A program made the position numbers and the translations under genes. Under the pieces are notes generated by a model. It was not told the origin of the DNA. It made no database searches and saw nothing but the letters and a program-made list of their open reading frames with translations. From Pleurostoma richardsiae (lineage: Eukaryota; Ascomycota; Sordariomycetes; Calosphaeriales; Pleurostomataceae), in assembly GCA_030052745.1 (NCBI GenBank), contig JANBVO010000092.1:1-35541 (forward strand): a DNA stretch of 35,541 bases, written 5' to 3'. Of the stretch, positions 1-35,541 are shown one piece after another (the stretch's first letter is position 1; each line of letters begins with the position of its first letter).

Positions 1-1011
1 GCTCTTCTTCAGGAAGCAAGCGTATGCTTGGTCAAACAGCGCCGCGACGTGACGGCCATGGAAGTTCAGATGCCGCCAGGTTCTGCAGGAAGCCACGAAA
101 TCGCACTCATTGAGCAGAAATCCCTCCAGCTTCTTACAACGGGCCCTGTCTAATATCGTCTCTCCTGGGCCTAGGGGACAGACGGAAAGGCCTGCGAAAG
201 CCGTATTGAATGGCCTATCGGCCTTCTTGCATAGCTCGCGAAAGAAGCTCGATTCCCACTCGACCGTATTGCCTCCAGTCTCTTGAGTGACAATAACCAG
301 TCGCGGGAGAAGCAATGACGGGGAGCCTGGCGAGGCGTGGATCCAGGCCGAAATGAAATTGGCAAGATCTGGCATACCTGGAAAGTCTGAGAGGAACAGA
401 CAGACAACATCTGTAAACGGACCTAACAGACGGCAGTATACAGCCTGGAGAGCGGTGGCGAAGCCTGCTTCCGGCCACTCTACGGCATCCCCGGTAGATT
501 CGTCCTCATCCGAGGTTATATTCGCCACGGCAGGCCCGTCAGCAAGGAGCAGTGGTCGGCTACAATCAGATGTCTTGGCAGCTGGCTGTAAGTAAATGGT
601 GTTGGGCCCGTCACGCCTCTTTGCGGCCGCTGTCATGTGTCGTAGAGCTGCTCGCCTGCCTGCCGCGCCCACAAAGAGGACAACGCTCGGGCTAGCGTCT
701 ACGCCATCTAGGAGACATCGGAGACGATCCGTTCGTTCTATAGCAAAGCCCCCTCCGTGGTGATGGAGCGTGAGCCACTGGTTGTCCTGTCTGCTACGCA
801 TTTTGTTACCCGGTTTTCCCAAAATGACTCCAGAACGGCGTAGCACGGGGTACTTGTACCCTCTCTTCGAGCGCAGAAGAGCTATATGCAGACAAAGAGT
901 TCTATTCTTATCCCACCATTATCCGGCCTGGACTATTTTTAGGTCTGGGACTCGAACAAGACATGATGGGCTAGCATGGACGAGAGCTGCTCTCAGCCTA
1001 CGTCGTTCCAT
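1..1011 (-). CDS. P-loop NTPase-like region of a probable patatin-type multidomain protein (partial, one internal stop)
   Basis: The minus strand is open from 918 to the left edge (306 codons), so the gene continues outside the window. The same frame extends up to an ATG at 1011, interrupted only by a TAA at 919-921; the next in-frame ATG is at 801. Visible blocks are GYKYPVLRRSGVILGK; then a beta-strand/loop SVVLFVGAAGRRAALR where a Walker A would sit, without the usual GKS/GKT; then PLLLADGPAV, LLGPFTDVVCLFLS, and LPRLVIVTQETGGN. This order matches, from memory, the NTPase-like region before the patatin domain in fungal FabD/lysophospholipase-like proteins. The patatin catalytic domain would lie beyond the left edge, so the name is an inference. 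The stop and the missing Lys suggest decay or a non-hydrolysing relative. Confidence 0.55.
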
Positions 1012-2082
1012 TTTAAAAGCCAATCATTCATGGGCAGGGTCAACATATAATATCTGTTGACGGCAGGTTCTATTCGAGTCAGAGAGAAGAAACGGTGTCG
1101 TTCGCAGTGACCAGCCGTGTCGAAACGGCTCCGACAAGGTCTCGCATTCGGAACGACACCCAGGATTGCCAATTTATCGACTACAGTATATACAGAGTGG
1201 TCGCTCTCCGGAGTCCAATACACAGAATGAGCAATAGCGAGCTTCTTCGGACAAGCAATCGAGCGCTAAGAGAAACCATGATGTGCCGCGGGAAAAATCC
1301 GCATGTCATGGTTGAGCCCGATTGCTTCAACGAACATTACCCGGAATTTGATACAGTCAGGTGTGTGTTAGTGCAATGTACTCGAGTCAGCATGTTTCTC
1401 AACGCCGATAGGAACGTACGTGCGTACGCCGAATCCGCAGCTGGTGCAAAAATATCTATCCCACGGTCCAGGTATAGGACTGTGAACAGGCTTAACACGT
1501 ACTAGGGAACGGCATACGATGGTTCGTCGTCTGTCCTCTTAAAGTCATATGTGTACGTCCTGAGTTTTTTTTTTAAGTTTTCCTTAGAATAGGAACATTT
1601 CAGGTTCATGCAATATTGCAAGGGATCAAACCTACTACTCGATTCTTCTAGTCATGCTGCTGTACACTCTTCAAGCCTGGTTCACTACTGGCGATGCCTC
1701 AACGTCCTACCCGATACTCACTCAGCTTGATCGTGGACTACTTCTCGCCATTATAACTCGTAGATGAGTTAGCTAACCCGCCTATGACGTTATCACCACT
1801 TTGTCTTTGTTGGCACCGATGGCCAGTCATCAGTGACATTTCGTTGGCCATGCTGTATAGTCCAGTTTCCTATAGAGTAGAACGCAAAGTTAGCGCCCCA
1901 GGCTTCTTAGCTTCACTTTCATCAAGGTCCATTTCGTGGCACATATGGCTTTGCATCATTGCGCGGTTGTACTGTATGCCAAAGCTAGTATCGACTGATC
2001 TAGCCGCTATAACGAAAGGATGCAAGCGGATTCTTGCTCACTTCTGCGTCCACACTCCGACGTCAAGCTCCTCCCTGATTTA
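1012..2082. other. gene-free stretch
   Basis: Short ORFs on both strands overlap each other and show no recognisable domain, intron pair or promoter. I see no repeat or RNA gene here. It separates the NTPase-like gene from the zinc-finger relic. Confidence 0.5.
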
Positions 2083-2942: not shown

Positions 2943-3538
2943 TAGCCGTCCCAGCGGTTGGATAGGCGGGCGGGGCTTCGTAGTCGAACACGCCGCAGCC
3001 CCCTTTCCCGAGGGCTTTTCAGGAGTACTAGCGCTAATATGAGTTAACTTGGAAAAAATAAAAGATAATGCAGAGTATTTTCCTTTTTGCGGAAGGCTTT
3101 TGATTTATATACCCAGAACGACGGGGTGTAGTTCCCTGTTTCATTCTACATCAGTGCAAGATAACGGCATCTGAGCTGCATCCAAGGTCCACTGAGCACT
3201 AGCATCCCAAAATATGTCTCGCACCGGCCAATGAAGGTAGCTCGTTCCACACACCTCCGAGGTTATGACTAGATACGTACATAGTTTCTCTTAGATGTGC
3301 GCAGACCATTGGTTGAGATTGCATACACGCCGACCACCCGACACACCTTTTCATGCATCATCGCCCAATTAAGAATGTCCGGCCCCCCGCATGGGACTAG
3401 AGCGTGGTTCCGTGGGATCAGGCTGTGGAAGGATGCCACGTCGACTCCAGAAACATTTTACCTTATCCTCGAATCAGACCCAACTTACCGCGAGCTCAAA
3501 GAGCCGTTGGTGATCTCGCTTGCTAGGGTCAAGAGGCC
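2943..3538. other. intergenic region upstream of the deaminase
   Basis: AT-rich around 3045-3115 and otherwise without coding signal. It presumably holds the promoter of the deaminase gene; no strong TATA box is close to the start. The ORF at 3297-3662 is out of frame with the deaminase and shows no domain. Confidence 0.4.
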
Positions 3539-5050
3539 ATGTATGACGAAGAGACGACGTCCTCGCTTCAACGACAGCAGCCTGAGCGTCCGTCGGAAGC
3601 GCATGGGCTCATCGGCGCTGCTCACAGACGCTTCGTTATTGTTACCTCACTGCTGTGTCTAATTGATCCGGTGCGAGGCGAGCCAACTGCACACAGCCTG
3701 GATAGACATCCGCATGACAGTAACTGGAGACTCGAAAACCTCCAGAAGAAGTTCCTGGACTCCTTTGCCTTGGTATGCTCTACCTCGAGGACAGGCGGAA
3801 ACACGGCTTCGGCAGTCTGTCTAGAACAGGGCCATCCAACTGGGAATGTGTTACGCCTTGCTCGGAATCTGGGCGTCCCTCAGGACCTTCTCAGCCAACT
3901 TCAGCAAATTCTCAATGACCTTGCCGCCGTTGCTGCAAAAGGTGAAGAACTACACGGAATCACAATCTGGAGCCCACAAACCGCTAACACTATGACATTT
4001 TCAGAAAAGACACTGAAAGACGGAGAGTCCGAGATCTTGCTTAAGATCATCACTTTGACGTATGACAAGATCTGGTCCCTATTGGAGAAGCTTCGTGATC
4101 CAGAGATCCATGCTTCTGTCCAACGAGCAATTTCCACAATGGAGGCAGACCACGTAGCATCCTTCGAGGATGGCGAAGAAGCCAATTTTCGGCAATGGAT
4201 CACTAACCTTCCCGTTCTGTTGTCACTCAAGCCTGATGCGACGCCGACTCAGCTCATTCCGCATATCAAATGGACGTCCCAGGCAAGATGGGTTTACGCC
4301 GAACATCTCGAAGCATTGTTCTGCCCTGAAGAAGAAGAATTACCGCTGTGGATCAAGCACATCTACAAACTCGCGCGGTACTTCTCAGCAACTAAAGCCA
4401 TGCTCAAGCTCGCTACCAAGCAACCTGATCTCTTCACGTCGATCTACGTCGAGGCTGTGCAAGCTCCAGAGCAGGAGAATTTCTCCTTGGGGAATGACAA
4501 GACGGCCCTCAGGACCGTTCTTCAGAGGTTGACTAAGGCCGACCCTGAACCACTTATTAAAAAGCTTGGCCAGAGCTGGCTCACGGATGACCCAGAAGCC
4601 CGATTGCGTAAAGCCTGCCATCTCAAGCTCACTGTCCACGCCGAGATGCAGCTCCTCGCATTCTATGATCATCACCCTGAACTCACTCCACGGCTGCTGT
4701 TCATGGGCACGAGTAAAAAAGCTTGTTTTCTCTGCCATGAGTTCATGTCCCGGCACCCGCTGACGATAGGGGTGTCAGCCAGTCACCAGAAACTGTACCC
4801 CACGTGGATGCCAGCTCCATGCTCATCTACGGTGCGGAAGAAACACAAAGTCTTGCTCTGGGACCTCAGTCGGCATCTAGAGCAAACGACTATCCGCGAC
4901 CTTGAGACCAGATTGGGAATTCGCCGACCGATGCAGATGGATTCTACGGCAGGTCCGTCCCTAACAACAACTGGAACCATCTCATCAGGGTTTGCTGCTC
5001 TGGAACTGCCTCTTCAATCTCTATCTATGAACGATCAGGACTCATCTTAA
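3539..5050 (+). CDS. OTT_1508-like nucleic-acid/nucleotide deaminase family protein
   Basis: A single uninterrupted 503-residue ORF. The C-terminal third carries the zinc-binding signature of the cytidine deaminase fold: H367-A-E369 in the motif TVHAEMQLLAFYDH, and C396-F-L-C399 in KACFLCHEFM. His plus two Cys bind zinc and Glu is the proton shuttle in this superfamily. The long helical N-terminus, with blocks AHGLIGAAHRRFVIVTSLLC and LDSFALVCSTSRTGGNTASA, is typical of the fungal branch of the OTT_1508-like deaminases, a group known mainly from comparative genomics. Their substrate is not established; roles in RNA/DNA editing or in conflict with mobile elements have been proposed. The start at 3539 is the first ATG of the frame; an upstream exon cannot be excluded. 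All motifs are intact, in contrast to the decayed neighbours. Confidence 0.85.
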   Translation: MYDEETTSSLQRQQPERPSEAHGLIGAAHRRFVIVTSLLCLIDPVRGEPTAHSLDRHPHDSNWRLENLQKKFLDSFALVCSTSRTGGNTASAVCLEQGHPTGNVLRLARNLGVPQDLLSQLQQILNDLAAVAAKGEELHGITIWSPQTANTMTFSEKTLKDGESEILLKIITLTYDKIWSLLEKLRDPEIHASVQRAISTMEADHVASFEDGEEANFRQWITNLPVLLSLKPDATPTQLIPHIKWTSQARWVYAEHLEALFCPEEEELPLWIKHIYKLARYFSATKAMLKLATKQPDLFTSIYVEAVQAPEQENFSLGNDKTALRTVLQRLTKADPEPLIKKLGQSWLTDDPEARLRKACHLKLTVHAEMQLLAFYDHHPELTPRLLFMGTSKKACFLCHEFMSRHPLTIGVSASHQKLYPTWMPAPCSSTVRKKHKVLLWDLSRHLEQTTIRDLETRLGIRRPMQMDSTAGPSLTTTGTISSGFAALELPLQSLSMNDQDSS

Positions 5051-5614
5051 CTACCGTAGCCGTTATACGTACTGGAGCGTGACTTTAATTTACTACAGTG
5101 CGTAACGGGGGCAGAACGTGATGGAGATAAGGTTTAGGGAAGACTGGCAGGGATTCGCAGTGGATAAGCTAGATTTACCTTTCCTAGATATTGCCTCTTC
5201 AATGTTGTTAAAGTACCTCTCACTACTGTACAAGTGTAGGCCGCGAGACCAGACAAGCCACAGGCTTACCAGTCCCCGGACCCCTTATCTCCGGCGTGGC
5301 CAAGCTGGTTCCGCTATACGCATTATCTACCATACTTTCACCTCCAATGGGAATTAAGCAAGCTAACATCCGTTTCCCGAGTTGCGGCCAAATTCTGTAA
5401 AAGCGTACTAGGCTGACCAGCCGTTGTCTCCCTGTCCCCAAGCTAGTGATTGTAGTACCTCGGACATAGAAACAAGGATGACCAGACAGACAAAGTAGGA
5501 ATGTCACAGCGCTACAATAGATTCAAGTATATATAGTAGGAAAATCACCACTGAAGTATATCACCTACGCTCCACGGACAAGATATCAACTATGCAATCC
5601 TTAAGGCTACATCA
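5051..5614. other. intergenic region with promoter of the Zn2Cys6 gene
   Basis: No coding signal. It contains the 3' flank of the deaminase and the TATA box listed separately. A tRNA box A look-alike at 5297-5308 was examined and rejected. Confidence 0.5.
5528..5535 (+). promoter_or_regulatory. TATA box of the Zn2Cys6 gene
   Basis: TATATATA lies 80 nt before the ATG at 5615, a normal distance for a fungal core promoter. Confidence 0.5.
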
Positions 5615-6040
5615 ATGGCAGCGAAACGAACCCAAGCTCACATTCCGGGGAGATCTACAACCAGGCAGCGGAGAGGCCACAGAAAGAGCAAAACGGGCTG
5701 TCTTGTGTGCAAGCGACGACGGATCAAATGTGATGAGCGGAAGCCTACCTGTCAAAATTGCGAGAAGTACGGGGTCTCCTGCAGCTACACCATCGAAGAT
5801 CGCGCAGGCAAAGCTGGGGACTCTATCATACAGCCAATTCCCGGTATAGTCGCCGGAAAGGGCGCACCAGAACAGGCCACAGAGGAGCCTGGAGGCTTTA
5901 CCCACTACACGCAAGCCACGAATTTCTCATGCACGCACTTTTGTTTCCCGGTATACGGGCTCCCGACCACGTTCCCTGTTCCTTGGCCTTGGTGGGAACA
6001 ACCAGAGCAACGACACACGAATAGTGCTCATTTCCTTTGA
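5615..6040 (+). CDS. truncated Zn(2)-Cys(6) transcription factor
   Basis: A 141-residue ORF. Residues about 28-58 form a canonical Gal4-type zinc cluster: GCLVCKRRRIKCDERKPTCQ followed by NCEKYGVSC, six Cys with C-x2-C-x6-C-x5-C-x2-C-x6-C spacing. It is preceded by a basic RRGHRKSK stretch of the kind that contacts DNA. Full-length relatives are usually 400-700 residues with a fungal regulatory domain; here translation ends soon after the DNA-binding domain. Another frame around 5920-5960 reads HEFLMHALLFPG, similar to the start of the regulatory domain in Upc2-like factors. This suggests that an internal deletion or frameshift removed the rest. It could still act as a DNA-binding-only competitor. 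It lies 740 bp upstream of, and on the same strand as, the ferric reductase, so a former regulatory link is possible but unproven. Confidence 0.75.
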   Translation: MAAKRTQAHIPGRSTTRQRRGHRKSKTGCLVCKRRRIKCDERKPTCQNCEKYGVSCSYTIEDRAGKAGDSIIQPIPGIVAGKGAPEQATEEPGGFTHYTQATNFSCTHFCFPVYGLPTTFPVPWPWWEQPEQRHTNSAHFL

Positions 6041-6706: not shown

Positions 6707-6713
6707 TATAAAT
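6707..6713 (+). promoter_or_regulatory. TATA box of the ferric reductase gene
   Basis: TATAAAT sits about 75 nt before the ATG at 6782, in a context free of ORFs. Confidence 0.5.
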
Positions 6714-6781
6714 CACAACAATTCCGGAAAAGGCCTTTGACTTTCCATTGGCATTGACAAGTTCTCGTTGCAGAGAACAAA

Positions 6782-8433
6782 ATGGCGGCTTCCGTGGCCT
6801 TGGTCTACGTCTGCTCAATCGCCGGGATATTGCTTCTCATCATCTCAGTCGCGTATTTTTTGGCGCTAAAATCGTCATTGAGAAGATCACGGCCGTTCAA
6901 CGCCGTCCGCTACTTCCGCATCGGTACTTGGAATCTGATCGACATACTCGCTGTCCTGGCTTACTTGGTCCTGAACGTCGTGGCCGTGTATTCCACGTCG
7001 GCAACAACCAGCGATTTCGGGCTGCGGGCCGCCGATTTGTCTCTTATCAACATGATCTGGCTATATGCTAATCCTTACATTGATTTCACTACTAGTGTCC
7101 TGGGGATCAGCCTGCGGAGGACGCACCGGTGGCATGCTACCATCGGCATCGTCGCATTCGTCCTCCTACTGACACATCTCGTCATATTTGACACATCTCG
7201 GGCCCCGTTCGAGCTGGACATCTCTCGAAATGCAGGAGGCTTGGTTGTATGTTGTTTTCCCAGCATAAGATCGTTTGGGATTGACGTCAATTCGTTCTTA
7301 GGGGGCGTTGTCCATGGGAGCTAGTTTGCAGTCTCGCCTCCTCCGAGGGCTGCCCTACGAGAGCTCGGTCCGACTGCACCAAGCCTTTGCTATCGTATCA
7401 GTGTTGGCCATCTGGTGCCACCTGTCCTCTGAGCCCATCCTACCGCGGATCCTCTTTTACGTCCTCTCCGGGGTGTTCGCCTCCTCGAGCCTCGCCTTAG
7501 CTGTTCTCATTCTCAGCAAGAATGGTGCCTTCGGCTATGGCTTCCCCCGTGGGGAAGTCATCTATCGAGATGGTGCTGTCATATTGAAGGTCTTGCTCCA
7601 ACGCCCTTTGCGATTGAAACCAGGTCAATTCGTCAGCCTCTGGATGCCCAGCGTGCGCGTTTGGCAGTGCCACCCCTTTGTCGTCACATCCCCCGGCCAG
7701 TCTCTGAAGGTGCTTGAGTTTCTCATCCAGCCTCGAGAAGGATTCTCGAGAGATCTCATGCTAGAAGCAGATACAGGCAGAAGGTCGGACATACTTGTCC
7801 TGTTCGGCGGCCCAAGTGGCAGAAGCGTCCCAGTCGGGAATTACGATGTTGTGCTCCTCGTTGCAAGCGGATTTGGCATCGCCGCACAGCTTCCCTATCT
7901 TTCGGTACTGCTTCACCGACGCAAGACCAACAATACTCGCAACAGCCGAGTACACCTGATCTGGCAACTATACACCCCGACTGAAGCCTGTGAGCATAGC
8001 CCCTCATCCGCAATACATGAAGCTGACACACCCTAAGTTCTGGTGAAGACTTTAGCGGAAGAGCTTGGCGACCCGTTCAACACCGCTCTTCGAGAAAAAA
8101 AATTCACTGTTTCGATCTACAATGCACACCTAAAGCGGAAGCATGAGGAAAACCCCAGCATCAGAGCTAAACAGGTCAGAGGTAAGGCAAATTGGGAATC
8201 TATCCTGAGAAGCGAAGTGGAAGGAGAGTTCATTGAAGTTGCGAAACGGGAGAAGCCAGTGCCGCTGGACATTATAGTTCTGGGTGAGCTTCATGAACCG
8301 GTCACCGTAGGTCATTGCTGACTGCCGAACAGTGTCCGCGACCCAGGAGATAAAGACAGAGCTTCACGCAATCCGGCGTCGCCATTTGAATCGGAACATC
8401 ACTCTAACTGAACTAGACTACCAACCGCCATAG
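6782..8433 (+). CDS. ferric reductase (FRE)-type transmembrane oxidoreductase, four exons
   Basis: Exons 6782-7246, 7302-7989, 8038-8283 and 8333-8433 join in frame to 499 residues; each intron has GT..AG ends, and a TGAC-type branch site is visible in all three. The N-terminal half is multi-pass membrane. Two His pairs, H118/H132 (HRWHATIG ... THLV) and H181/H195 (RLHQAFA ... WCHL), each 14 apart, are the bis-heme ligands of the family. PGQF (262-265) and H279-P-F (HPFVVTS) form the FAD site. VLLVASGFGIAAQLPYL is the NADPH-binding turn. The C-terminus ends in ITLTELDYQPP, typical of the family. The late Cys-Gly-Pro nicotinamide motif is not seen (VLVSATQE instead). The protein would move electrons from NADPH across a membrane to iron or another acceptor. 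It appears intact. Ferric reductases are recurrent Starship cargo. Confidence 0.88.
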
Positions 8434-9109: not shown

Positions 9110-12100
9110 ATGACGTCTGTCAATCCCGCCACTGTAGCAAGAAGGATCGAGTCGGAACGCCTGCGAAAGTTTTTGGGAACGGCCAATGTGAGATTTCAAT
9201 CCCTCGATTTCCCCGTCTCTGAGAGCGGAAGACGTAAAGATCATCTCGAATTGAGGTTCCAGCAACAAGGCCACCGGGGTTCGAAAGACCTCAGGCACCG
9301 CATAAACGCTACTGTCAGCCTCGCTGACCTAGAAGCCGCACTGGACATTACTGGTATATCAAGGTCCGACCTTCTAGATAATTCACAGCGGACTAGGAAC
9401 CTCGAGTTTCCTCCGGACGTCCGACTCACGTGCCTCCATGGTCGAGCTGCAGTCAAGGCTGCTGAGGAGGTCTTTGACGATGAAGACGGGCGTTGGCTCG
9501 TCAATCTCTATCTCCCAGGTTCAAAACCTAGCCATGTTACTCTATATCTATTGATCTGCCTCTTCCTGCTGCTTCATTGTCCGACTTCCTTCGTCTAACT
9601 TGTCATTAGACATAAGTCCCGAGCTGAGAACATCTCTCGCCGAGAGGTACGACTACGACGCGGAGCCGGACGACGGCGAGTTCTTCTGTAGGATTCGCGA
9701 ATACCAGGGAGTCCTTGGCGAGCCGAATGCGTATCTCGAAAACGAATGGTGGGCACGGCTGTTGGAGAAATCCCCGTCACGCCGACAACGATTCGACCAG
9801 CTCTTCAATCATGAAGGCTACTTGTCGGCTTTCACCAGGCTGCTCGAAGCCGGATTGGAAGGGCTATTTGGCGGATTCAGAGCCAGCGTGATGCACGAGG
9901 TGATCGCCTCGGGGTGTGAGATTGTGAGGACTCTGGGCTCCCCGACTTTCTTCACTAACCTGGAGCAGGAGTGCATTTCATACATAGACAGCATTCTCGA
10001 CTTCTTTCGGAGCCTGTTCAACAAAAGTAATAATCGGATGAGAAGATTGAGCAGAGGAGACGTCATGGAGCTGCAGGGAAAAGCACCCGGAGCATTTCCT
10101 GCAGACGCACAAGATCTCATTGGGAAGCTGAAGACTCGGCAGATTTTGACAGCCTACAGCGAAGAAGAGAGAGACGAAATATGGTCGGGACTATGTGCTA
10201 TGACAAAAGAACGGTCCATCCCATCTATCTTCACCTTCTTCGAGGACACTAAATTCTTGAGGACAGCCGGGATTCTGATGAAGCGGCTCATGCCACAGGG
10301 ACGCACGATCTCCCTCCATCTCCGGACACACATGTTCCAAGACAAGAATCAGAAGCCCAACGAGTGCGTGATACAGCTCACAGAATCGACTTATTCGTCG
10401 GTTCCTGGCAATGCTGATGACCGATTGGAACTTGGCCGCCGCCAGCTTTGGCTAGCGGCGCTTCGAGCGTACCATCCCACGGGTCCAACGAGAAGAAGAA
10501 GCGCAGCTTCACCGGACAGGACTGCTGAGGAGGTCACGTTAGTCATGTTGGCTGCTCTTGCCAATACGCTGGGCTTTGACTCTAAGGAAATCCAAAAACT
10601 CCTCAAGGAATCGCCTGACAGGCGCATTGCGAGCCAGATGCTCCGTCGCGCGAGGAATCCCGACCTATACCGATACGAGAACTTTGATGCTTGCGTTGAT
10701 ATGGTCGAAGAAGTCATCTGCACGGCTCAGGAAATACCGGAGTCAGGCAGGTCAGAGGCCCTTCGGGTGAACAGACGCCCTGGCCAGGCATACAGATGGG
10801 GCAAACCCAGCGATTTCGACCATAGGTCGGAGATGTTCCTTCATACGTTACACAGCCCGTTTCGCGGAAGACGTCATCGGATCACCACTGCTTTTGTTCT
10901 CCGGTCTATGTACTTTGCCTTTTTCGGAGCAGAGCTTGGTACTGAACTCCAGTGCAGGGGCCAGCCCAGACAGCAGGTGCATAACTGGGTGTCCTTACCT
11001 CGTTCGAATCCGTTTCGAGAGAGAATTGACACGATACGAGGGTTATCCGAGGCTGAAGAGTGCGAAAGGCGACTCTCAAAACTGAAGGAGCTGGAGTCGG
11101 AGAAGGAGGCTTCCCTGCAACGTCTGATCGAAGTCGTTGAGCGCTATGAAGCAGAAGCGGACTCTCTTGCGAGGGAAAGAGATACGTCAGAATCAAAACT
11201 TTGGCAGCTTTCACGGCAGATTACCATGGCGGAAAGGCGGTTAATGGAACTTGACGAGACGGTGCTCAGATATAGCAGGCGGGACGAAGGGCCGAGGGAC
11301 CAAGGACCAGGGACGGCGCCGTCTAGAACGTATCGAACACGCAGTCCGAACCAGTCCACACCGAGCAGCTCAGCACGCGGCCATCGCTTCAGTCAACCTG
11401 AGGGCTCGGCAACACCAGAGGCGAACCAAGATTTTCCAGCGCATCTTGAACCATGTAGAACCTTTCTCTCTCACCAGTTAGAGGCCGACGGTCCAGTCCC
11501 TCCTGCGGCAGGAGATCCTCACCAGAGCTCAAGAGGGACGAACGGGAGAAGATATCAAGAGGAACCACGTAAGCGGCGGAAGACCGACGCCGCACTAGAA
11601 CCGCAAAATGAGACGACGTCTGCCAGTAGCAGTCGCCATTTGCTTCGCGAAACAGCCACGTCCGTTTCGCATAGCAACAGGCACCGAATCACGCAGCTTC
11701 ATTTCGATCAGGATCCAGATACTGTGGACACGCCCGGGGCACAATCCCTCAGCAGTTACACTGAGGTACTCGATTTTTCTTTTTTTCCTTTTTTTCTCTT
11801 TTTTTTTTCGCTAACCTCTGTTAAAGCCCAACAGTCCGATGAGAGAGACATTTGATCTTGAAAGAGCTCTGATCGAGTTCAAGACGCGAACATTGGATGG
11901 TAAATGGGAGACAGCGAATGTGCTGTTGGCTGATCCGTCAGGCCTGTCCCATGTGGAGCAAACCGCGGAAAAGTATGAGAGAGAAGGCTTCTACCTTTTT
12001 GACAGGGACGGTCGTAGATTGGATCCTAAAACACTCTTTGCCGGCATTAAAGAGAAAGGCAATATTGTCTTGATGATTCCCAGGCCCAGACCACCCCTTC

Positions 12101-12606: not shown

Positions 12607-12615
12607 TATATATAA
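12607..12615 (+). promoter_or_regulatory. TATA box of the HMG-box gene
   Basis: TATATATAA lies about 70 nt before the ATG at 12678. Confidence 0.5.
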
Positions 12616-12677
12616 TGTGTAGATGCTTCAACAATCTTTATGGTATCTCTTTTGCATAAGTAGATTCTTATAACAAG

Positions 12678-13467: not shown

Positions 13468-13545
13468 GCCCCTTGTGTCCAAGAACACCACCTTGGGAGA
13501 TTATAATGATATAGCGGCCCTAGAATCCAAAAAGCATTATACTAT

Positions 13546-23937: not shown

Positions 23938-24116
23938 GCTCCTATCGCCAACAAGACAGGCACCAGGAAGAAGCAAAGAAGAAAGTACATCTTTTGAGCG
24001 TGTTCCGCGTTGAGCGGATAGAGAGAATGAAGAGAGCAGGATGACAATTCAGGACTCGCATAGAGCATGCGAGTCGACTGGCTGACCGCCCGTGAAAGTA
24101 CGCAGGACTGCTCCCT

Positions 24117-24122
24117 TATATA
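24117..24122 (+). promoter_or_regulatory. TATA box upstream of the 24158 ORF
   Basis: TATATA lies 41 nt before the ATG at 24158, within the short region shared with the divergent coiled-coil gene. Confidence 0.35.
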
Positions 24123-24157
24123 CTGATGCACCTAGCTCACAGACACATCTCGCACTC

Positions 24158-24319
24158 ATGGCCACGCGCGCCACCCGGGAAGCGACACGCTATGAGATTG
24201 TACCTGATAAAGCCAAAGTCTATGGAAGAGACGGGGAGAGGGTTATCCCCTGTGTAGATATCACATTGCTGACGATGGTTCACACGGCCAATTATGGGCC
24301 AAGGATGGCTCTTTCATAG
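24158..24319 (+). CDS. small hypothetical protein
   Basis: A 53-residue ORF (MATRATREATRYEIVPDKAK ... NYGPRMALS) that follows a TATA box. After the TAG at 24317-24319 the same frame stays open to about 24555, so a single stop may have shortened a longer gene. No family recognised. The alternative is chance. Confidence 0.3.
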   Translation: MATRATREATRYEIVPDKAKVYGRDGERVIPCVDITLLTMVHTANYGPRMALS

Positions 24320-25699
24320 GTATCCTCCGGATGGTATCCCGCCAAGCACCACATATGGCTCAAGGGGCGTGTCCAATACCACTCTTGCTCTTGGTACGCA
24401 TGCGGCATAGCTGATATAGCCACAGTACGTTCAGTTGATTCTTGCCACTGTCTCTACAGACGAGCTTCACAGGCATCCACCACTCATCATGCGTACGCCG
24501 AGTTGTGCCATTCCAGGCTCATGAGACAGGTTCCTTCCCGCATTTCCGTCCTCTGACAGTCCTACCAAAAAATATGCGTTTCCTAACCCATATATTAGAC
24601 TCTCTTCCTATGTCTCTCTTGAAGCCATACTCGATCCACTGCAAGCTCCACCACATCAGCTCTAGGCATGCTAATTCCTCCTGACGGCTCCCTGTCAGGA
24701 CTAGTACCTCCTAGGTCCGTTGGTCCCTCCGTTCCTCCCTCTTGGGTCTCAATCTCTGCTTCAAGACATATGGCTAGTTTCCGCCTGTGCTAACAATGAT
24801 TCCCGTTTCTGTAAACTATTAGCTAGGGCATTGTGGAACTGGACAAGACGATGTCACCCCGTGTCGCGCTTTCTTAGTACTTACAGTAAGAACCTCCGCC
24901 TAGCCAATCTCAGCTGATTCCCAACTGGAGCTTCCTTGGCTCAATAAGAAGTCTTATTCCCGAGACGAAGGAGGATTTGGGGCCAAGAGAGCCTCCTCTA
25001 GGCAGATTAGTTATCTCCTGGTTGCCTACGTGTTTAGGTCGTCAAGTTCCGTTTCTCGCACAGAAAATGATTTGTAGGACGCTATCACCTGTCCTTGCGT
25101 AGCCTCGAGTCAATTTCAGGCTAGCGAAAAGCGCAAGTCCCTCCCCTATGCAGCCTCACAGATAGAGCATCGGCACCACAATTTGGGTTGCTCTCGTTTT
25201 CAATCCTAACTATCGCTAATTGGCAAGGGAGACCTTTATTAGCGGCATGAGACATTGGGCGACGTCATGTTTAGTGAATTGCATAATGCGCAAGCCAGGA
25301 CCAGATTTTAGACGTGCGGAAAGCCGAGACCCAAAAGAGGGCCGCTGGCCCAGGTTCGGGGCCTCGCAGGTGCAGTTCCAGGGCGTACGAACCCAGTATC
25401 GGGCCCGTCCATAACATTGGCTCAAAGCTCAGCCTGGCTAAGTCGGCGCCCCAGCTTGCTCAGGGACCAGCTCAGGTAGGGCGGCACGAGCTCGCCCCGA
25501 AGACGGAAAAATGGATTTTAGTGAGCTTGAATTTCGTCTCCGAGTAAGATCGACCCTATCACGTCAACAGGAGCCGGGTCCTGGGGATGGGAAAAGGTTG
25601 CCTGTCCAGCCCGGTAACTGTAACCCGGATCCAGGATTCTAGGTTGCCGACACTAAGTTGCGAAGCCAGGTCCTCGGGATGCTGTCATGCCCCTTGATC
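24320..25699. other. gene-free stretch
   Basis: Mixed composition with short ORFs only. No repeat, RNA gene or domain found; it leads into the SNF2 helicase relic. Confidence 0.45.
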
Positions 25700-26760: not shown

Positions 26761-27243
26761 CCTGGGGAGCGGGACACCCTCGGCAATACTCCCGCGTTAG
26801 CCGAAGTCTCGACTGCCTCAATGAGGTGAAGTGATGCTTCGAAACCGGCCAGGCGGAGCATGGCTGGAACTGCGCCATCCACTACTAGTTGACGTCGCAG
26901 CGGCAAGAGCAGCTAATTGACTGCACACATTGGTAGGAACCGCATTCGCATGCACCCAATTCGATGCCCATACGCGGTGCAGGTAGCCGTTTAGTCGGGC
27001 CATCCCTGTTGATCCTGGATGCGAGCATGTATGGAGCTCAGCGCCGTCATTATGACCGCTAGCTCGGCATAGTATGGGTCTGCTCTGTTCTTGCTCCTAC
27101 CATAGGAGCGTGACGGTAAAGGTCATTGGCACCTCATGTCGGCCGTGTACCGCTGTATCGCGTATAACAACTCCCCACACCAAAGTCAACTCACTCGCAG
27201 TCCCCGAGGTCTTCCGAAATCCGCAACGGCGCATGATTCAGTG
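26761..27243. other. gene-free stretch
   Basis: Downstream flank of the Gcn5-like gene and possible further helicase debris on the minus strand (26700-26900). Nothing that can be called. Confidence 0.4.
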
Positions 27244-28487
27244 CTAAGGCTCGAGATACGACAACTCGGGTACGGCCTTGATCTGCTGCCACATGTACTT
27301 CTCGAGTCTGTTGGCGCTCTTGGCGTAGGGCGTGTTCTCGGAGTTGTAGCGGCGGCAGTTATCGAAGATGAGCTTGGCGTCCTTGATGAACTCCTCAGGT
27401 GTGGGATACTGGTCGGCCTCGAGCTTGGACTCCATGGTAGTGAGGTCCATGGGCTCCTTAATTATGTCATGGTAGTCGGCGACGTCGTCCGTATTGACAG
27501 GTATGAGGAACGGCCACGATGACGCGTGGGTCTGCATGTCGTTGAGCAGGTGCAGCAGCAGGTTGTAACCGGGCCCATGGCGTGGCTGGCGCGCAAGCTC
27601 GTCCATGTCGGGGGACCACCCCGAAGCCCGGATCGTCTCGATGGACAGGGGGTCAATCGGCGTCACGCCATCTTTCCACTGCTTGGGGGGCTGGTGAACG
27701 ATATGCGACGTGGAGAAGGCGCGGATCTTGGCGTGCACGCACTCCTTCTGCTTCAGCAGCATGCGGTGCGTTTCGAGGTAGCGGATACGTGGCAGCATGC
27801 TGCACTGCATGATGGTGCCGCCCTCATAGTCCTTGATGTAGCCACCCCACACGCTCCTGTCCAGTGTGATATCCTTGGTGAAGCCCTGTTTCTTGAAGAA
27901 GCCGATGGCATAATTGTCTGCATACGTCAGGAAGTGCATCACGTCCGACGTCGCCTTGACGTAGTCCTTCAGGTGCGACATCATGTGGGCACCGTACCCC
28001 TTGACCTGCTGGTCCGATGAGACGGCGCAGAAGACAATCTCGGCGAAGCGCCGTCCCTTGACGGGCCGATATGTGATACCACCCACCACCTGGAGTGGCT
28101 TCTTGACGATTGCGATTGATAGATGCGCCCGGTCGTAGACAAGCCGAGCGATGTAGCGCTTTGGCATCTCGGGCAGCTGTTTCTGGAAAATGCACTTCAG
28201 GCCCGTCAAAATGATCAGGCTCTCGCGCTCGTTGTCGTTGTTAACGACGCGGACCTCGATGTCACCATTGAGCTCTTCTACGACGACGGGCTTGGGGTGC
28301 AGGTTAGCGATCTCCAAGTCCACTGCTCAGCAACGACGGGGTGTACTGTCGCAATTACCTTCTCAGAGAGAGATATGATAGGCGGCTTAGGTTCCTTCTC
28401 AGATTCAGGCAGGGTATCCTGCTTGGGTCGTTTCGAGGCCATTGGCAAAGGCGTCTCTCCGCTCGCCTTGCGTTTCTCTTTCGACAT
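27244..28487 (-). CDS. gcn5-like: Gcn5-type histone acetyltransferase with bromodomain (probable paralog), two exons
   Basis: Exons 28487-28359 and 28290-27244 give 391 residues, the normal Gcn5 length. The 68-bp intron (GTAATT donor, GCTAAC branch, CCAAG acceptor) joins SLSEK to [20 protein letters not shown] in frame. The start was chosen at [10 protein letters not shown], as in other fungal Gcn5 proteins. The GNAT domain covers about 75-240: the general base E127 in [11 protein letters not shown], the acetyl-CoA loop [11 protein letters not shown], and [15 protein letters not shown]. The bromodomain covers about 284-385, with acetyl-lysine-binding N359 in [13 protein letters not shown]. 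It would acetylate histone H3 as the catalytic subunit of SAGA/ADA. Several positions I expect to be invariant differ (for example [12 protein letters not shown] instead of [12 protein letters not shown]), and it lies between a helicase relic and an NLR relic. I therefore infer an extra, diverged copy. Confidence 0.92.
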
Positions 28488-28920
28488 CCTGATGGATGCC
28501 GACAACGGTGGCAGCAAGGCGGCCTTGGCCGATTGCGAAGTGTACTACTTTGAGACGTGAAGTAAACGGGCTTGTGGCTGAGCACCACGTCACGGTTGGG
28601 CAGAGGCGCTAAGTCTTGGCACATACACTTCCCCCAGGGTAATATTTGGATCACAACTTCAGGTCAAGGATATTGCTCCTCTTGTTTCGAGCTTTAGAAT
28701 TAACTCAAACGGTACGTTATCTCGACTCTTGACAGGATGACATTTATTACTCTGCGGGGAAATCCAGTGGCGGACATGTTCAAAGCACGTGCGGGAAGTG
28801 GGGCAGCGCCTAACTTGCAGTCGAGTGATTGGCTATTATCGACCGACTAGTGACATTCGCGGTAGAAGAGCAAATCACAGTTCGAGATGAGCCTAGAACC
28901 GCAAATGGGAGGATGCCTCC
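28488..28920. other. intergenic region upstream of the Gcn5-like gene
   Basis: Divergent promoter space between the Gcn5-like gene and the NLR relic. Antisense and sense ORFs here are shadows without domains. Confidence 0.4.
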
Positions 28921-30656
28921 GTGGTCCGGTTTTCCACGATCCGGGCGTGCCCTGCACCCATACAACAGTGGGATGGCGTTCAGAAAGCCTTCCGTACAAA
29001 GCTGTCGACCAGCAACCAGCAGTCCAGCTTTCCGGAGTGCCAACGCGTCAGCTGGCGGGGCAATCAGCTCCACCTCTATAACCAGATGCTATTCCCGCAG
29101 TCGAGACTGATCATTCCGATCCTGCGTGACCCCAACTTCGTGGAGCGACCGGACATCGCGGCGTGGATAGGGAGCCAAGTACGTTGAGGCTAACAGTGTT
29201 GTGTACTCAGGCACGCAGTCATGTGACTAGGTTCTTCTCACCCATTTTGAAGTACGCCTGCAATAAAACAGTCGTGCGGCGGTTGTGGGTCGAGGCGGCA
29301 TATGGTATCTGTACCTGCCACTCTGCGTCAGACTTTTCAGACCGCGCTGACGACACTAGTGAAACCCAGCTCGCCGTACAGTATGCGGACGAGATCCTGC
29401 AGTACCGATTTTCTGGGTGCCTGCAAGCAGAAAGAACCGTATCGAGACGGCCTACCGGGACACAACAGCAGCCCAGCTTCGACTACCGCAGCATGCTGAT
29501 CGCAATACCGACACGCTCGGGCTGGTACGCGACCGGATGATGGTTCTCGACAATGCCGATGACATCAAGGTCTTTCACTCGGGCCGTCCTCACGGCTTAG
29601 ACTGAGCCGCGGACGATAGTTCGTCGAACACAATCGTGGCGACATGGCATATCACCTACGAGCAGGTCCGACGCGAATGGCCACCGGCGGCAGATCTGCT
29701 CTCCTTGATGAGCTTCTTCCTCCTGAACAGCGTTCCCGAGTCGGTCCTTCGTTCGCATCGATGTGAGGCTGGGGGACACGACTTCGACGAGGACATCGAG
29801 ATTTTGCGCCGCTACTCGCTGGTGGAGAGTGCCGCGGAGAGTGGCGTATTGGCGACGCAATCGCTGCTTTACCCAACAGCGGAATGCGAGGACTGGAATA
29901 TGTACCGGACACTCGATGCGCATGTCGAAAACATCATCGGTACAATCCCGAGGGATAGCGCGGATACCATGAGATGGGCGGTCCTGCTCACGAACGCTGC
30001 ATGGTGCCGGGGGATGAGCGGCCGATACATCGAGGTGGAAGCAATGCTGAGAGCTGTCGTGGACGCCAGGGAGCAGGTGCTCGGTGTGGGACATCCAGAC
30101 ACACTGACGGGCATTAACAATCTTGCGCAGGTGTTATCGGAGCAGGGCAAACGTAGCGAGTCAGAGCGGTTGCACCGGCCGGTGCTCGGTGAAAGAGAGA
30201 AGACGCTCGGATGCGAACATGCACACGCTGATGAGCGCAAGCAACCTTGCGGCCTGCTATGGGACCGGGATATGTGCGGAACTGCTGTACAGATGCAACG
30301 ACAAGCACTCCACGCAAGGGAGAAAGTGTTGGGCGAGGACTATCCGCACATGCTGGCGAGTGCCAACAATCTCGCGTCCATGCTACTTGTATAGGGCAAG
30401 TACGACGAGGCAGAGCAGTTGTTGGACGAGTAATCCTGGGGCTGGAGAGAGTGCTCGGCCCAGATCATCGATATACTCTCGCCAGTATCAGCAATCTCGC
30501 CTATCTCCTCCGCGACGGAAAGCGGACGGCAGAGGCCGCCGAGCTATATGAACCGGCCTACAGCGGCCATCGCAAAGTCCTCGGATCAGCGCATCCTCGC
30601 ACCGTGTCCTGCGGAAATAATTGTCGATCTGTCAGGGAAGAGGGCACGCCTTGATG
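28921..30656 (+). pseudogene. NLR relic: NB-ARC fragments plus kinesin-light-chain-type TPRs
   Basis: Pieces follow the order of fungal NB-ARC/TPR proteins. RLIIPILRDPNFVERPDIAAWI (about 29095-29175) is the usual entry to NB-ARC. ETQLAVQYADEILQ (about 29360) follows where the P-loop should be, though the P-loop itself is not intact. FWVPASRKNRIETAYRDT and MMVLDNADDIKVF (about 29410-29570, other frames) cover the Walker B region. After an apparent internal deletion, ATWHITYEQVRREWPPAADL (from 29639) begins the winged-helix/TPR part. TPR units of the E-VLG-HPDTL-NNLA type follow until a TAG at 30392-30394, then in another frame VILGLERVLGPDHRYTLASI to 30656. Intact relatives are sensors in non-self recognition and programmed cell death. 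NLRs are recurrent Starship cargo. Confidence 0.75.
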
Positions 30657-32288
30657 ATAAGTGACTGAAGTAGCACACATCTGCATGGTGTTCAGCACAG
30701 GGAGGCATGCAGGAGATGCATAACTCCGATTGCTGACTCTATGCAGGTCTCGGTTCTCTTTCATAGATCTTGCACCACTAGTGAAGGGCGCCGAAAATGG
30801 CTCCCTCGTTGACTCTTAAGGTCTGTCCCCGCTGGACTGGAGAGCGAGCTCCCTCTTTCTTCTTCCGTCTGTCTTTATCGCGCCAGCTCGCGTCTCGCAG
30901 TGGCTGTCGCTATCTGCCCCTTTTCGTCACCATTAGTCTCCAGGATTCATGCCCAGCATGGCGCACTCCGACCACTTGACCGACGATGACTACAGCACCG
31001 GGTCATCGTCGTCTTGAGACGACGACCTCTTGACGACGAAGACGAAGCGTTCTGCTCCGGCACCAAAGCCACTAACGTAGAGCTCCTCTGCGCCTGCGAC
31101 GGCGATAGCGTAGGGACGACGACAGCATCGAGGACCTGATCCTCAAGGGGAACGTCCACTCGCTGGAATGCTACCAGCGGGTCACCGTCGGGGTCATACA
31201 GCTTGACTCGTCCAAAGGAGTCGTCTACATCTCATTCAGCGGGGCTGCTATCTGTGGTATGTGCGAGCTACCATGCGCGGTCGCAATACGTCGGCAGAGA
31301 TACGGGATCCAACATGTCGCTCCAGCGTCGCATACCAGCATCGCACAATAGCAGGCCGAGAATGTGGTCAGGAAGAACTTCGGGAGCATAGATGAAATAT
31401 ACTGTGCTGCAAAGCCGTTGTTCACGCCGAGCTGCAACAACTGGTTGACAGTACGTGGTGGGGTCGGACCTCTTTCCATGTACGTCTTGCCTACCTACTA
31501 CTCGGATGACCAGAGAGCGGTAATGTTCAACTTTTAGCGTAGAGAATCGGCCTAGCAATCCTAACGGTATCAAGGTCTGCGCATGTGATCCAGATGCTGC
31601 GCTGCTCCTGTACGCGGCGAGACGTGATAAAGAGTGCTACTGCTCAGTGAGACACATGGGTCTGACTGAGGTGAGCGTGGCTACGCTGCCTGAATATTCT
31701 GCCGGCGCTGACGGCCAGCAATGAGCCCGCGTCTTGCTCTGGCTGCTCATGACATCCAGGCTTGCTGCAGCGCAGGCCACTGATGACGTTGTCAAACCGT
31801 TTTGATTTTTGCTGATAAACTCTCTGCTGACGAAAGTAAGTTTCTCCTAGTTCGGCGTTAGGTACACGTTATCGGCGCTGACAAGGCTCCAGCCCATTCG
31901 CTACATCCGCCCAATACTGTGACCGTGAGACGGTAAGCGAAGACGAAGCACGGCTATGGTTACCTAGCCGATCAAGGTGCACCAAGACGAAAACCGCGAC
32001 ACCTTGTCACGTGAAGAGAAGCCCATCGTTGTGCGGCGGTCCCTGGGACCTCCGTATGGCCACTCGTGGTCAACAATGAGCGTCCAACTCGACAGGGGGC
32101 GTACCCATCACTGCTAGAGATGAGGCTCGAGTCAGCGTCAGCTCCCCAGCTCGGGGCCGTCATCCTCGATACTATCTAGCGTGCTACGACCCTCGTCCCC
32201 ACTTTGTGGGCCTTTAGGGCTTGTCGCGGAAGATGCTGACCCGGCGGCTGACCGAGGTAACCAGATCTTGACTCCATGTCTGTGGTTC
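30657..32288. other. gene-poor stretch with coding-like fragments
   Basis: Fragments that look protein-like but cannot be joined or named: an acidic/Ser-rich piece from the ATG at 30949 (HLTDDDYSTGSSSS), DSIEDLILKGNVHSLECYQR and QLDSSKGVVYISFSG in another frame (about 31115-31245), and VVRKNFGSIDEIYCAAKPLF (about 31360-31430). They may belong to one decayed gene. The TATA of the next ORF is listed separately. Confidence 0.3.
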
Positions 32289-32296
32289 TATAAATA
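32289..32296 (+). promoter_or_regulatory. TATA box of the gag-like ORF
   Basis: TATAAATA lies 90 nt before the ATG at 32379 and stands out in GC-rich surroundings. Confidence 0.5.
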
Positions 32297-32378
32297 TGGG
32301 GCCACTCCTCTTCACAAGTCAACTGTTTTTGAGTGCCGTCATCCTCCCATATAGCTGCTTGTCGAGTGTGCCTTCATC

Positions 32379-32933
32379 ATGACTCTTCTTCCGTTTGAAT
32401 GTGTTTCCGACGCTTTCTTGTCTAGCCCCGTGACGCGGTTGGCTGGACCAGAAGACATTCAGTCGTGGTCAGTACACCTAGAAAAGATGGCGGAACTAGC
32501 GGGTTGCCATGACGTCCTTTTTGACCGTTGCTTCGACGAGGCTATGAAGAAGTTTGATCCGAGCACTACCGGCGGTCTGCTGGCCAAACTTCGGAGAAAG
32601 CAGGCTATGACTTTTCTGCACAACTCGGTGTCCGGCAAGGTGTGGGCGTACATGAGAGTCATGGACTATCCGGACTTTTCATGCGATCCCTTCCAAGCTC
32701 GGCTATGCGCTATAGAAGCGGCGAGGAGGCTCCCTGCAGCGGAGACATACGAGCAGAGCAGGGAGGAGATCGACGAGTTGTCCACGAGTGGCGCTGCGCA
32801 AAGCTAAAAGTACTACTGGACCGACGAGCGGTACGAGGAGGCTAAGAAGTGGCTGGGCGAGCGGCCGAAACTGTACTATGACAATGGGCATCCCGAGGTG
32901 CGCCGCTTCATGGATATGGAATCTCGAATCTGA
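32379..32933 (+). CDS. gag-like protein with one in-frame stop
   Basis: A 142-residue ORF ends at TAA 32805-32807, and the same frame continues to TGA 32931-32933 with the natural-looking segment KYYWTDERYEEAKKWLGERP and LYYDNGHPEVRRFMD. The N-terminal part (VTRLAGPEDIQSWSVHLEKM ... KLRRKQAMTFLHNSVSGKVW) resembles the capsid-like start of Ty1/copia gag proteins, in which a short hydrophobic motif is followed by a W-containing helix and a helical bundle. No protease, integrase or LTR is visible next to it, so it is either a solo gag relic or a captured gag-like gene with its own TATA promoter. The stop could be a CAA/CAG-type mutation. Family assignment is tentative. Confidence 0.4.
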
Positions 32934-34077
32934 ACAGGCACGATTAATTTGAACGATGCCTCATATGTCGACGAGGCTCCGTCTACGGCAATTATCCGCG
33001 TCAAGCAAGAGGTGCAGTAGATTAGAGGGTGGTTGAGATGGAGCGACCGCGTCGAGTGGCCGAGACGCCCGGCGAGCAAGTCGATGTTGATGTCCTCGAT
33101 CGACTCGTGCCCTCGGACAAGGGAGCCTCGTTCTAGGGTGGAGCAAATATATGGGAGACGGAGAAATACCTGAAAATCGAGAGCTAAAACGGGGTAAATT
33201 ATCGATATAGACGTTTTTCTATTGAAATAAACCCTATCTACTTGCTCCTGCGGATCGCGTGAACCTAATGCTGACATCCGTCTATCGCCGAAGGATCTCC
33301 AAGCGCCGCACTGCCCTGGTCTCGTGGGCGTAGCTGCGCCGTCAACAGACATAGAGCTCGCCGTGACCGAATCAGCATCACGTGAATTCGTGAGGACAGC
33401 CATGCTAAAGACGTGAGGGTTTCTCCGTCAAGTTTTGAAATGGATGACCACGGTGTATTAATTCATTCTCTTACCCCGCATAGTGCTAGTGGACCAGACG
33501 AGGGACAAGGAAGCTATCTTTACTCATAATATGAGTCTGTCACCACAAAATTTCATTGGCTAAATCCGACAAGACACCATGCCCTGTTGGTCAGCCGCCC
33601 TCTTTCTGCCGGCAGAATTGAGCTCCACGGACACCCGCGTTTCCTCCATCGTCATCACGCTTCGAGCCATTTCGAGATTCCACTACGAGTCCTTGGATAA
33701 ATAAGGCCGACGACTCGGAATAAATGCATGACATGCGAGGCTCGCCTCCTTTTGCCGCATCATCATTCCGACATGCGCCACCAGGCGCGACAACCCCCGG
33801 TCGCGGTCGCACATCGAAGTAGACGATGAAGCCGATGACGCCCGCCTCCGAGCACACGAAGAGCGTGCGCCTCCGCGACTGGAGAAAATGTCCTTCAAGG
33901 ACCACGCGCAGGCCATGCACAATCTCGATCTCAGGCTCAGGGTCAAGAGATGGACGACGACGACGAGATCTGTCACCCCAGACGAAAGCGCGGCACCCGC
34001 GACACGGATCATTAACGGCCAGAGTACTGAGAAGGCGAAAACCAGGCCGAAGATCATCCTCCGGCTAGGCGGGCAGG
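32934..34077. other. intergenic region and possible 5' debris of the recombinase
   Basis: 32934-33880 shows no coding signal; it is AT-rich near 33160-33240 and 33440-33560. From about 33790 a plus-strand frame (SHIEVDDEADDARLRAHEER, KMSFKDHAQAMHNLDLRLRV) could be the recombinase N-terminus, but antisense ORFs are equally long. Confidence 0.35.
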
Positions 34078-35541
34078 GACCTATGGACGGACTGGAAGCA
34101 AATCCGGCTGGTGTACGAGATGGCCACGAAGGAAAAGCTCGATCCGAAGCCGAACTACAGGATGCACAAGATGAGGTCCGACTGACAGGACGGACGTGGG
34201 CGATCACTGACATTGGCACGTCCTGAGGAAGTTGGCCACGAAGCACATCCTGAGCAGCTAGAGGAGGGAGAACCGCTGCATGACGATCGACAGCCTCCGG
34301 GACCAGGTCGAGACGACGCTGAGCACGACCGAGAAGTCGTTCGAGCTCGGGCAGATCCGCATCCTGGCCGCACTGTTCCTCCTCCTGCTGGCCCCCGCCG
34401 GCTCTCGACCGCAGTCCATCCTGCGGCTCCGGTTCGGTGACATATGGCTCGTGCTGTCGAGACCCCGAGGGCGGGCCGCACATGGTCAAGTTCACGCTGG
34501 AGTTCACCAAGACGTATCTCGGCGCCAAGGACGCGTAGGTGTGCCGCCACGTAGGCTCGGGCCGCCGTGTCTGGGTTTGGATCTCTTCTGTATATGCTGA
34601 TGAACACGTCCGAAACACCATTCCGTTCCACAAGACCATGTTCAATCCGTCGCTGCTTCTCAGCTACCAAGTCTTTCTCCTGGGCACCCTCTTCTGACAC
34701 CGCGCGTTCCGGGGGCCCAAGCTCGTCTCGTCCGGGCAGCTGGACAGCCTCGACATCCACCCGGACGAGCTCGGGCTGCGCATACCCCTGCGGCGCGACC
34801 TGCGCGATGTGTGCCTGTTCCGCCGCGCCGTCCGGACCCTGACCGGGTACGACATGTCCCCGACGCAACCCATCACCTACGCCATGATAGCGGCGTCGAC
34901 CAAGAAGGTCGGCGAGATCATGGGCCTCGAGATAGGCACGATCCCGTACAACCTGCGCTACAACGCAGGCAACGAGTTTGACCAGAGCGGTCTGTCCCCG
35001 ATCGCCCTTCCCGCCACTGGACCGCCTCAGCTGACTGCGATGCAGGGAGCGTCAGCGATGCGCTTCGCAATCTGATGTTGGGCCACGCCAACTCGAACCC
35101 GTTCCAGAAACACTACCTCGGACGCGAGATCTGCGCGGACCCGTGGGCCCTCCTGCGCGGCCGCACGCCGCAGCAGGCCCTGGTCAAGCAGTCCTGCAGC
35201 GTCGCCTACTCGATCAGCAAGCGCCGCCCGCTGAACCTGACCGCGGAACAGTCGGCATCCGTCCTCACCCACCCCCTGGTCAGGAAGCTAATCAGCGAGC
35301 TCCGAGCACTGCGGCCGGACTCGGCGCGGTACCTGAACACGCGCCGCAAGCTCCGGAACGCGAAGCAGACGCTCAGGAGGGAGCTTCGGGAGCGTATCAG
35401 AGACGAGTGGACGGACGAGCAGGCCGTCGACGACATCAGGCGCCAGCTGCGAGGCATTGGTTTCGCCGAGCCCATCGCGGCCGATGCCGCCCGTCGCCCG
35501 CAACTCCCGGCTCAGAAGCGCCTGGTCGCCGCGCTCACCGC
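34078..35541 (+). pseudogene. DUF3435 tyrosine recombinase (Starship captain family), broken, runs off the right edge
   Basis: DLWTDWKQIRLVYEMATKEK starts the recognisable part in one frame. A second frame holds TIDSLRDQVETTLSTTEKSF to GSRPQSILRLRFGDIWLVL. A third holds DPEGGPHMVKFTLEFTKTYL, FNPSLLLSYQVFLLGTLF, RRAVRTLTGYDMSP and IPYNLRYNAGNEFDQS. A good 56-bp intron (34990-35045, CTGAC branch) then joins to SVSDALRNLMLGHANSNPFQ and KHYLGREICADPWALLRGRT, open to the edge. The candidate recombinase residues are still encoded: Arg 34406-34408, Arg 34956-34958, His 35084-35086, Tyr 35114-35116. Damage: a frameshift near 34455, TAG 34536-34538 and TGA 34695-34697, plus stops in the 5' part. Intact captains move Starships by site-specific recombination; this copy cannot as read. 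Confidence 0.85.
34990..35045 (+). other. intron of the DUF3435 gene
   Basis: GTCTGT donor, GCTGAC branch site and ATGCAG acceptor. Removal fuses NEFDQS to GSVSDALRN with the expected conserved Gly, showing that splicing signals survive although the gene is broken upstream. Confidence 0.6.

Follow-up and report, generated by a model that had tools for sequence, protein, structure and literature searches.

The window analysed here, meaning the whole stretch of DNA, is the entire contig C129 (35,541 bp) of a 39.43 Mb assembly in 136 contigs of Pleurostoma richardsiae, a wood-dwelling fungus that causes occasional human infections. At its right end the window carries a damaged recombinase gene of the DUF3435 family, to which the captain genes of the giant transposons called Starships belong, and upstream of that gene it carries an additional copy of GCN5, the gene for the catalytic subunit of SAGA, within a mosaic of duplicated DNA. 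Gene families were called by matches to Pfam profiles, and the open frame at the left end and a 261-aa open reading frame (ORF) were also compared with NCBIfam.

The DUF3435 recombinase reported by a first-pass annotation of these letters was confirmed by Pfam in two open pieces at the right edge of the window, on the + strand and reading off the contig, and by a profile scan of the genome, which found no further DUF3435 match in the window beyond this gene. The scan gave 34 matches to PF11917, which were merged with two more loci into 22 loci, a count that leaves out three short pieces (on C30, on C108 and on C120 at 33.8 kb). Comparison with the copies on C44, C87 and C79 places the start codon of the captain probably at 30958, ~240 bp inside a point at which the copies cease to resemble one another. 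In five of five usable copy pairs (C44–C87, C44–window, C44–C79, C87–window and C87–C79, out of the six pairs among four copies) captain homology ended within ~20 bp of window 30,715–30,724, and we take this as the putative 5′ border of a DUF3435 element near 30,715. The remaining pair, window–C79, cannot test the border because a flank containing tetratricopeptide repeats (TPR) is shared beyond it. The captain is a dead pseudogene with stops, shifts of frame and an interruption of 2.9 kb. Exon 1 has an in-frame TGA near 31,015, the remainder of the gene is interrupted by TGA and TAG, and the 2.9-kb stretch contains pieces of dispersed repeats (C133, C79, C54, C60, C15 and C32). Against PDB the captain piece gave weak matches to unrelated proteins only (best E 0.043). 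DUF3435 matches stand at contig ends facing outward on C44, C87, C120, C126, C133 and C129 and inward on C15, C136 and C30, a position that is explained by repeat collapse. A link between DUF3435 genes and telomeres was also considered, but TTAGGG triplets were found nowhere in the assembly.

The direction of this gene determines on which side its cargo would lie. According to the available portions of three papers (PMC11623301, PMC12289983, PMC12134995), the captain comes first among the genes of a Starship, at its 5′ end, and the window captain reads rightwards from 30,958, so the element runs off the contig, and the other listed genes, all of them upstream of the captain and none downstream, lie outside it. 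The window as the cargo of its visible captain was therefore ruled out by captain direction and 5′ border. The expectation of a captain at one end of an insertion held as far as position is concerned, since the gene stands at the extreme right near a 5′ border, but it reads out of the contig and away from the listed genes. Nor does the list of families alone show a Starship, because a DUF3435 gene is more often solo than a captain, most of these genes lying outside recognized elements, according to excerpts of two of these papers (PMC12134995, PMC12289983). Lists of cargo classes can thus mislead, as captain direction and border put the listed genes outside the element. A sibling contig (C136:1-9000) begins within the zinc-finger-like C-terminal region of a captain, which is followed by ankyrin, major facilitator superfamily, short-chain dehydrogenase/reductase and histidinol-dehydrogenase-like frames that we read as the apparent cargo side of the present captain family. 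Elsewhere, C79:44000-53900 keeps, on a single contig, both the zinc-finger-like C-terminus and the downstream flank of a captain that is a deletion derivative, and a 300-bp piece downstream of the C79 captain recurs in C136 and in C20, ~430 bp from the C20 GCN5 unit. Near another captain fragment, C120:1-9999 contains an E1-E2 ATPase (P-type) frame, an APH-like kinase and a weak Myb-like frame.

Upstream of the border, the GCN5 gene lies on the − strand with exon 1 at 28487-28359, a 68-bp GT-AG intron at 28358-28291 and exon 2 at 28290-27244, the stop standing at 27244. Its product has a full GNAT domain and a C-terminal bromodomain, is 86 % identical to the canonical Gcn5 of the genome and aligns to solved Gcn5 chains (692 bits against PDB 9ynv chain N); its presumed catalytic glutamate and acetyl-CoA loop line up with solved yeast Gcn5. 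GCN5 was the only gene recognized in a ~2-kb unit (26973..28996) shared with two other contigs. The unit was also considered as a small transposon, an idea that was dropped as no terminal repeats were seen by eye at its ends.

Across the genome, the GCN5 set consisted of the canonical gene on C96, recovered as 390 of the 391 residues of the annotated protein, three further two-domain copies (the window copy and two on C64, at 176 kb and 260 kb, here C64a and C64b) and two pieces, one on C20 and one at the C85 end, both of which are cut by contig ends. C64b (L022 4913-5947) has an open exon 2, is annotated as GCN5-like and is 67 % identical to the window copy and ~70 % to canonical fungal copies; the best 120 of its 3,091 matches did not exceed 71 % identity, its own annotated protein aside. 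Two controls, Hfi1 (SAGA-Tad1) and Elp3, had one locus each, so that the genome as a whole is neither duplicated nor mixed. This bears on whether the contig could be contamination or an artefact of assembly, which would fit its small size, the missing TTAGGG triplets and the contig ends that fall within repeated genes. We regard that as highly improbable, as C129 shares blocks of 87–92 % identity with C44 (735 kb), C87 and C64, and as three GCN5 copies with a mutual synonymous divergence (dS) of 0.12–0.21 cannot be the single GCN5 of one contaminant. A survey of Aspergillus and outgroups recorded a single copy of Gcn5 in each of its species, as given in the available part of that source (PMC9676040). 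The best-ranked open-licence literature yielded no account of GCN5 being multi-copy or linked to mobile elements in fungi.

The window GCN5 is an intact frame under purifying selection. Substitutions were counted as in Nei and Gojobori, without transition correction, and the ratio of nonsynonymous to synonymous divergence (dN/dS) between the window and C20, its nearest sister, was 0.17 (24.5 synonymous and 15.5 nonsynonymous differences over 328 codons; p 4e-7 against neutrality). The ratio lay at 0.13–0.28 in 10 of 10 GCN5 pairs, which are not independent of one another. Within exon 2 the window and C20 differ 9, 1 and 20 times at codon positions 1, 2 and 3, without gaps, and this exon is 3.5 % diverged compared to 7.3 % for the 5′ flank (Fisher p 0.0026); the short intron is 4.4 % diverged.

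The origin of the extra gene was examined by phylogenetic inference. Among the best 120 of 2,772 matches to the window Gcn5, which did not include the window copy itself, identity reached 88 % at most (Phaeoacremonium minimum). A 54-row tree was built from 51 of these 120 proteins together with three local copies, of which one was in the wrong frame; ten rows were dropped and the frame was corrected for a 44-row tree, and the approximately unbiased (AU) test was run on 43 rows. In the trees the window, C20 and C64a copies clustered together close to P. minimum, in a clade that contained no further row. The extra clade grouped with the P. minimum GCN5 rather than with the canonical gene of its own genome (support 91/85 in the 54-row tree, where the bootstrap had not settled, 90 in the 44-row tree and 94.5 in the AU-test analysis), as would be expected had the gene been transferred horizontally from a relative of Phaeoacremonium. 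However, the AU test did not establish such a transfer: an origin with Pleurostoma’s own gene was not rejected (p 0.53), and its likelihood was slightly higher. The extra clade also has a long branch, and Phaeoacremonium and Pleurostoma belong to nearby orders, which counts against the need for a transfer. We consider transfer rather unlikely.

The 30.7 kb upstream of the captain element is a mosaic of duplications and not the captain’s cargo (Table 1). One block of it is shared with C120 and meets a dispersed repeat at a junction that is visible at 21,894–21,900. Ten ORFs were compared between the C129 and C120 copies of this block. Three of the ten were constrained, with dN/dS values of 0.15–0.18 and no indels: the HMG-box ORF (0.17, p 0.0042), the 261-aa ORF (0.15, p 0.0001, with 98 % identity) and the acyl-CoA-oxidase ORF (0.18, p 0.0001). 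The 261-aa ORF had no family match in Pfam or NCBIfam, and its conservation suggests that this neighbour of the HMG-box gene is probably a real gene of no known family. The next ORF (17000-17617), adjacent to the acyl-CoA-oxidase frame, contains in its C120 copy both indels and a stop, and the acyl-CoA-oxidase gene may be broken there. The other seven ORFs, which serve as an internal control, gave dN/dS values of 0.51–1.99, and six of the seven show indels and/or, in C120, a stop. Repeat-induced point mutation was rejected as the cause of decay, the composite index being negative in 17 of 17 2-kb bins over 1-34,000 when judged by customary thresholds.

Table 1. Features of contig C129, in order of position, with the evidence for each
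Feature	Position	Strand	Evidence
Open frame, 306 aa, running off the left contig end	1..918	−	Frame only
OTT_1508-like deaminase, 507-aa open frame	3527..5047	+	OTT_1508_deam, Pfam 61.1 bits
Zn(2)-Cys(6) cluster protein exon	5555..6037	+	Pfam Zn_clus
Ferric-reductase-like (FRE) gene, at least two frames	6758..8033	+	Pfam
DUF3723 protein, two exons	9287..11852	+	Pfam 71 and 321 bits
Segmental duplication shared with C120	12041..21900		BLAST pieces 93-94 %; 95.7 % over ungapped aligned columns
HMG-box ORF	13018..13464	+	Pfam HMG_box
261-aa ORF, no family	13549..14331	−	Constraint between C129 and C120 copies
Acyl-CoA-oxidase-like ORF	15976..16971	+	Pfam ACOX_C_alpha1, slightly above cut-off
Dispersed repeat shared with C5, C105 and C132 (80-96 %)	21894..25655		DNA comparison
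GCN5 unit, ~2.0 kb, shared with C20 and the end of C85	26973..28996		DNA comparison
Intact GCN5 gene model, 391 aa	27244..28487	−	Pfam GNAT and bromodomain; comparison
TPR (perhaps NLR) relic, broken frames; relatives in C117, C79 and others	29035..30654	+	Pfam TPR_10/TPR_12
5′ end of DUF3435 (captain-family) element, continuing past the contig	30715..35541	+	Copy-pair comparison
Probable captain exon 1	30958..31181	+	Comparison with C44
2.9-kb stretch splitting the captain	31182..34084		323 bp at the same place in C44
Remainder of captain pseudogene, cut by the contig end	34085..35541	+	DUF3435 positions 2-392

The remaining genes bear on the proposal of the first-pass annotation that the window as a whole derives from a Starship, possibly from a nest of elements. 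In its stronger form, the whole window would be Starship cargo, with the left part (OTT_1508, FRE and DUF3723) coming from a second Starship whose captain lies beyond the left end. FRE and DUF3723 are named among the recurrent cargo classes in the parts of PMC12134995 that were available, and nested Starships with several tyrosine recombinase genes are known from the corresponding parts of PMC12289983. Among the four recurrent classes (DUF3723, ferric reductases, patatin-like proteins and NOD-like receptors, NLR), DUF3723 is present in the window, with matches to both exons that together cover positions 5-508 of the 508 in the profile, and it has three loci in the genome, two of which are on contigs bearing DUF3435. 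The closest of the three public relatives found, from Colletotrichum sublineola, is 35 % identical and of little help on origin. The ferric reductase was upheld in part, FAD_binding_8 being above the Pfam cut-off and Ferric_reduct and NAD_binding_6 slightly under theirs. For the relic described as NB-ARC/TPR, the repeats were recovered and represent the NLR class on their own; NB-ARC was absent from its Pfam results and is no more than suspected, from a DUF7779 match of 15 bits, below the cut-off of 27, and a string that we take to be kinase-2-like. The patatin-type NTPase region suggested, with less certainty, at 1-918 on the − strand was not confirmed, as this 306-aa frame matched nothing in Pfam or NCBIfam and showed no patatin and no NTPase domain. 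The OTT_1508 deaminase, HMG-box protein, acyl-CoA oxidase and Gcn5 that had been named alongside these classes were all matched by Pfam. Against the nested arrangement stand the single DUF3435 gene of the window, which faces outward with its border near 30,715, and the OTT_1508 family, of whose 12 matches in the genome two lie within 30 kb of a DUF3435 locus; a second element end was not seen in the window. On this balance we think it unlikely that the whole window is Starship cargo. What stands of a Starship-derived window is the captain-family gene, DUF3723 and part of FRE, in the face of a captain that is dead and directed outward and of other genes that lie outside its element.

Taken together, the evidence makes it reasonably probable, in our judgement, that the right end of the window is the start of a derelict DUF3435 element and that the left 30.7 kb is an accessory duplication mosaic holding a selected extra GCN5, whose product likely enters SAGA/ADA. 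The contig would be part of an accessory, duplication-rich compartment of the P. richardsiae genome, and its right end would be the first ~5 kb of the derelict element, any cargo lying rightwards, off the contig. The gene content, the mosaic homologies, the border and damage of the captain and the number and constraint of the GCN5 copies were observed, and from these we infer expression, entry into SAGA and the mobilizing mechanism, in which the compartment would grow by segmental duplication and by recombination among repeated contigs. The extra GCN5 would have been duplicated again inside this compartment as a ~2-kb unit that includes the intron, and the window copy and its sister would since have been kept by purifying selection.

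A plainer account is that this is ordinary subtelomeric or accessory-chromosome duplication, in which DUF3435 is just another repeat and the extra copies of GCN5 were carried along by chance and are decaying. Dispersed repeats, relics and mosaic junctions do predominate in the window, and two of the GCN5 copies are altered or divergent, C64a by a deletion and C64b by its low identity to the window copy. However, the window GCN5 retains its frame, its intron signals and a constraint by codon position, whereas in the adjacent segment seven of the ten tested ORFs gave the higher ratios stated above, six of them with indels and/or a stop in the C120 copy. We therefore doubt that chance duplication accounts for the gene.

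Several observations weigh against the reading that we favour. Where the distance between an extra GCN5 copy or piece and a DUF3435 locus could be measured, it was 7, 29, 54 and 68 kb, and regions within 70 kb of such a locus make up ≤4.6 % of the genome, but the 70-kb limit was set with the data already in view; two of the copies stand on the same contig, and neither C20 nor the canonical contig C96 has a DUF3435 match. The pieces on C20 and C85 may belong to a single gene, as its two halves. In C64a a 51-bp in-frame deletion has taken 17 residues out of the acetyltransferase core. Constraint is also weaker in exon 1, which shows 8.5 % divergence and 51 gap columns between the window and C20. 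The captain border is supported by no more than two flank types ({window, C79} and {C44, C87}), and because the window and C79 share the TPR relic past the border, the moving unit in that lineage could be larger. Furthermore, the left limit of the C120 duplication at 12,041 is simply the end of contig C120, which makes the extent of the duplication uncertain; no second copy of 1-12,040 was found in a DNA search of the assembly, and this part may be shared or a collapsed repeat.

The extra Gcn5 is probably expressed, since the window copy and its sister are under purifying selection, and its architecture and constraint suggest that it most likely competes with or replaces the canonical Gcn5 in SAGA/ADA. 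C64a, with an incomplete acetyltransferase core and a retained bromodomain, might be a dominant-negative subunit, which is a guess from its sequence. Among items of wide function, GCN5 is the best preserved in the mosaic. A more far-reaching idea, which we put forward as speculative and improbable, is that a DUF3435-rich accessory compartment amplifies and maintains a SAGA catalytic subunit of its own, the extra Gcn5 acting as an alternative or, in the case of C64a, a poisoning subunit that keeps the chromatin of the compartment acetylated or shifts host transcription. If this were true, mobile or accessory DNA would rewrite the general chromatin machinery of its host. Three extra two-domain GCN5 copies, on recombinase-bearing contigs and partly under selection, would offer a natural test of SAGA dosage, of subunit swapping and of the idea that accessory DNA manipulates the chromatin of its host.

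In comparison with known systems, the window copy resembles GCN5/KAT2 of SAGA/ADA in its complete architecture of GNAT domain and bromodomain and differs in being extra and accessory, beside one canonical gene. The right end resembles a Starship in that its DUF3435 gene probably starts ~240 bp inside a border common to four copies and in that metabolic genes lie downstream of the captain end on the sibling contig C136; it differs in that its captain is dead, its 3′ end lies off the contig and the other genes of the window are upstream of the captain. Solo DUF3435 genes provide the other comparison, as most genes of this family are not in recognized elements in the parts of PMC12134995 and PMC12289983 that were available; the family described here differs from these in having four copies with a common 5′ border and a sibling with cargo-like genes downstream.

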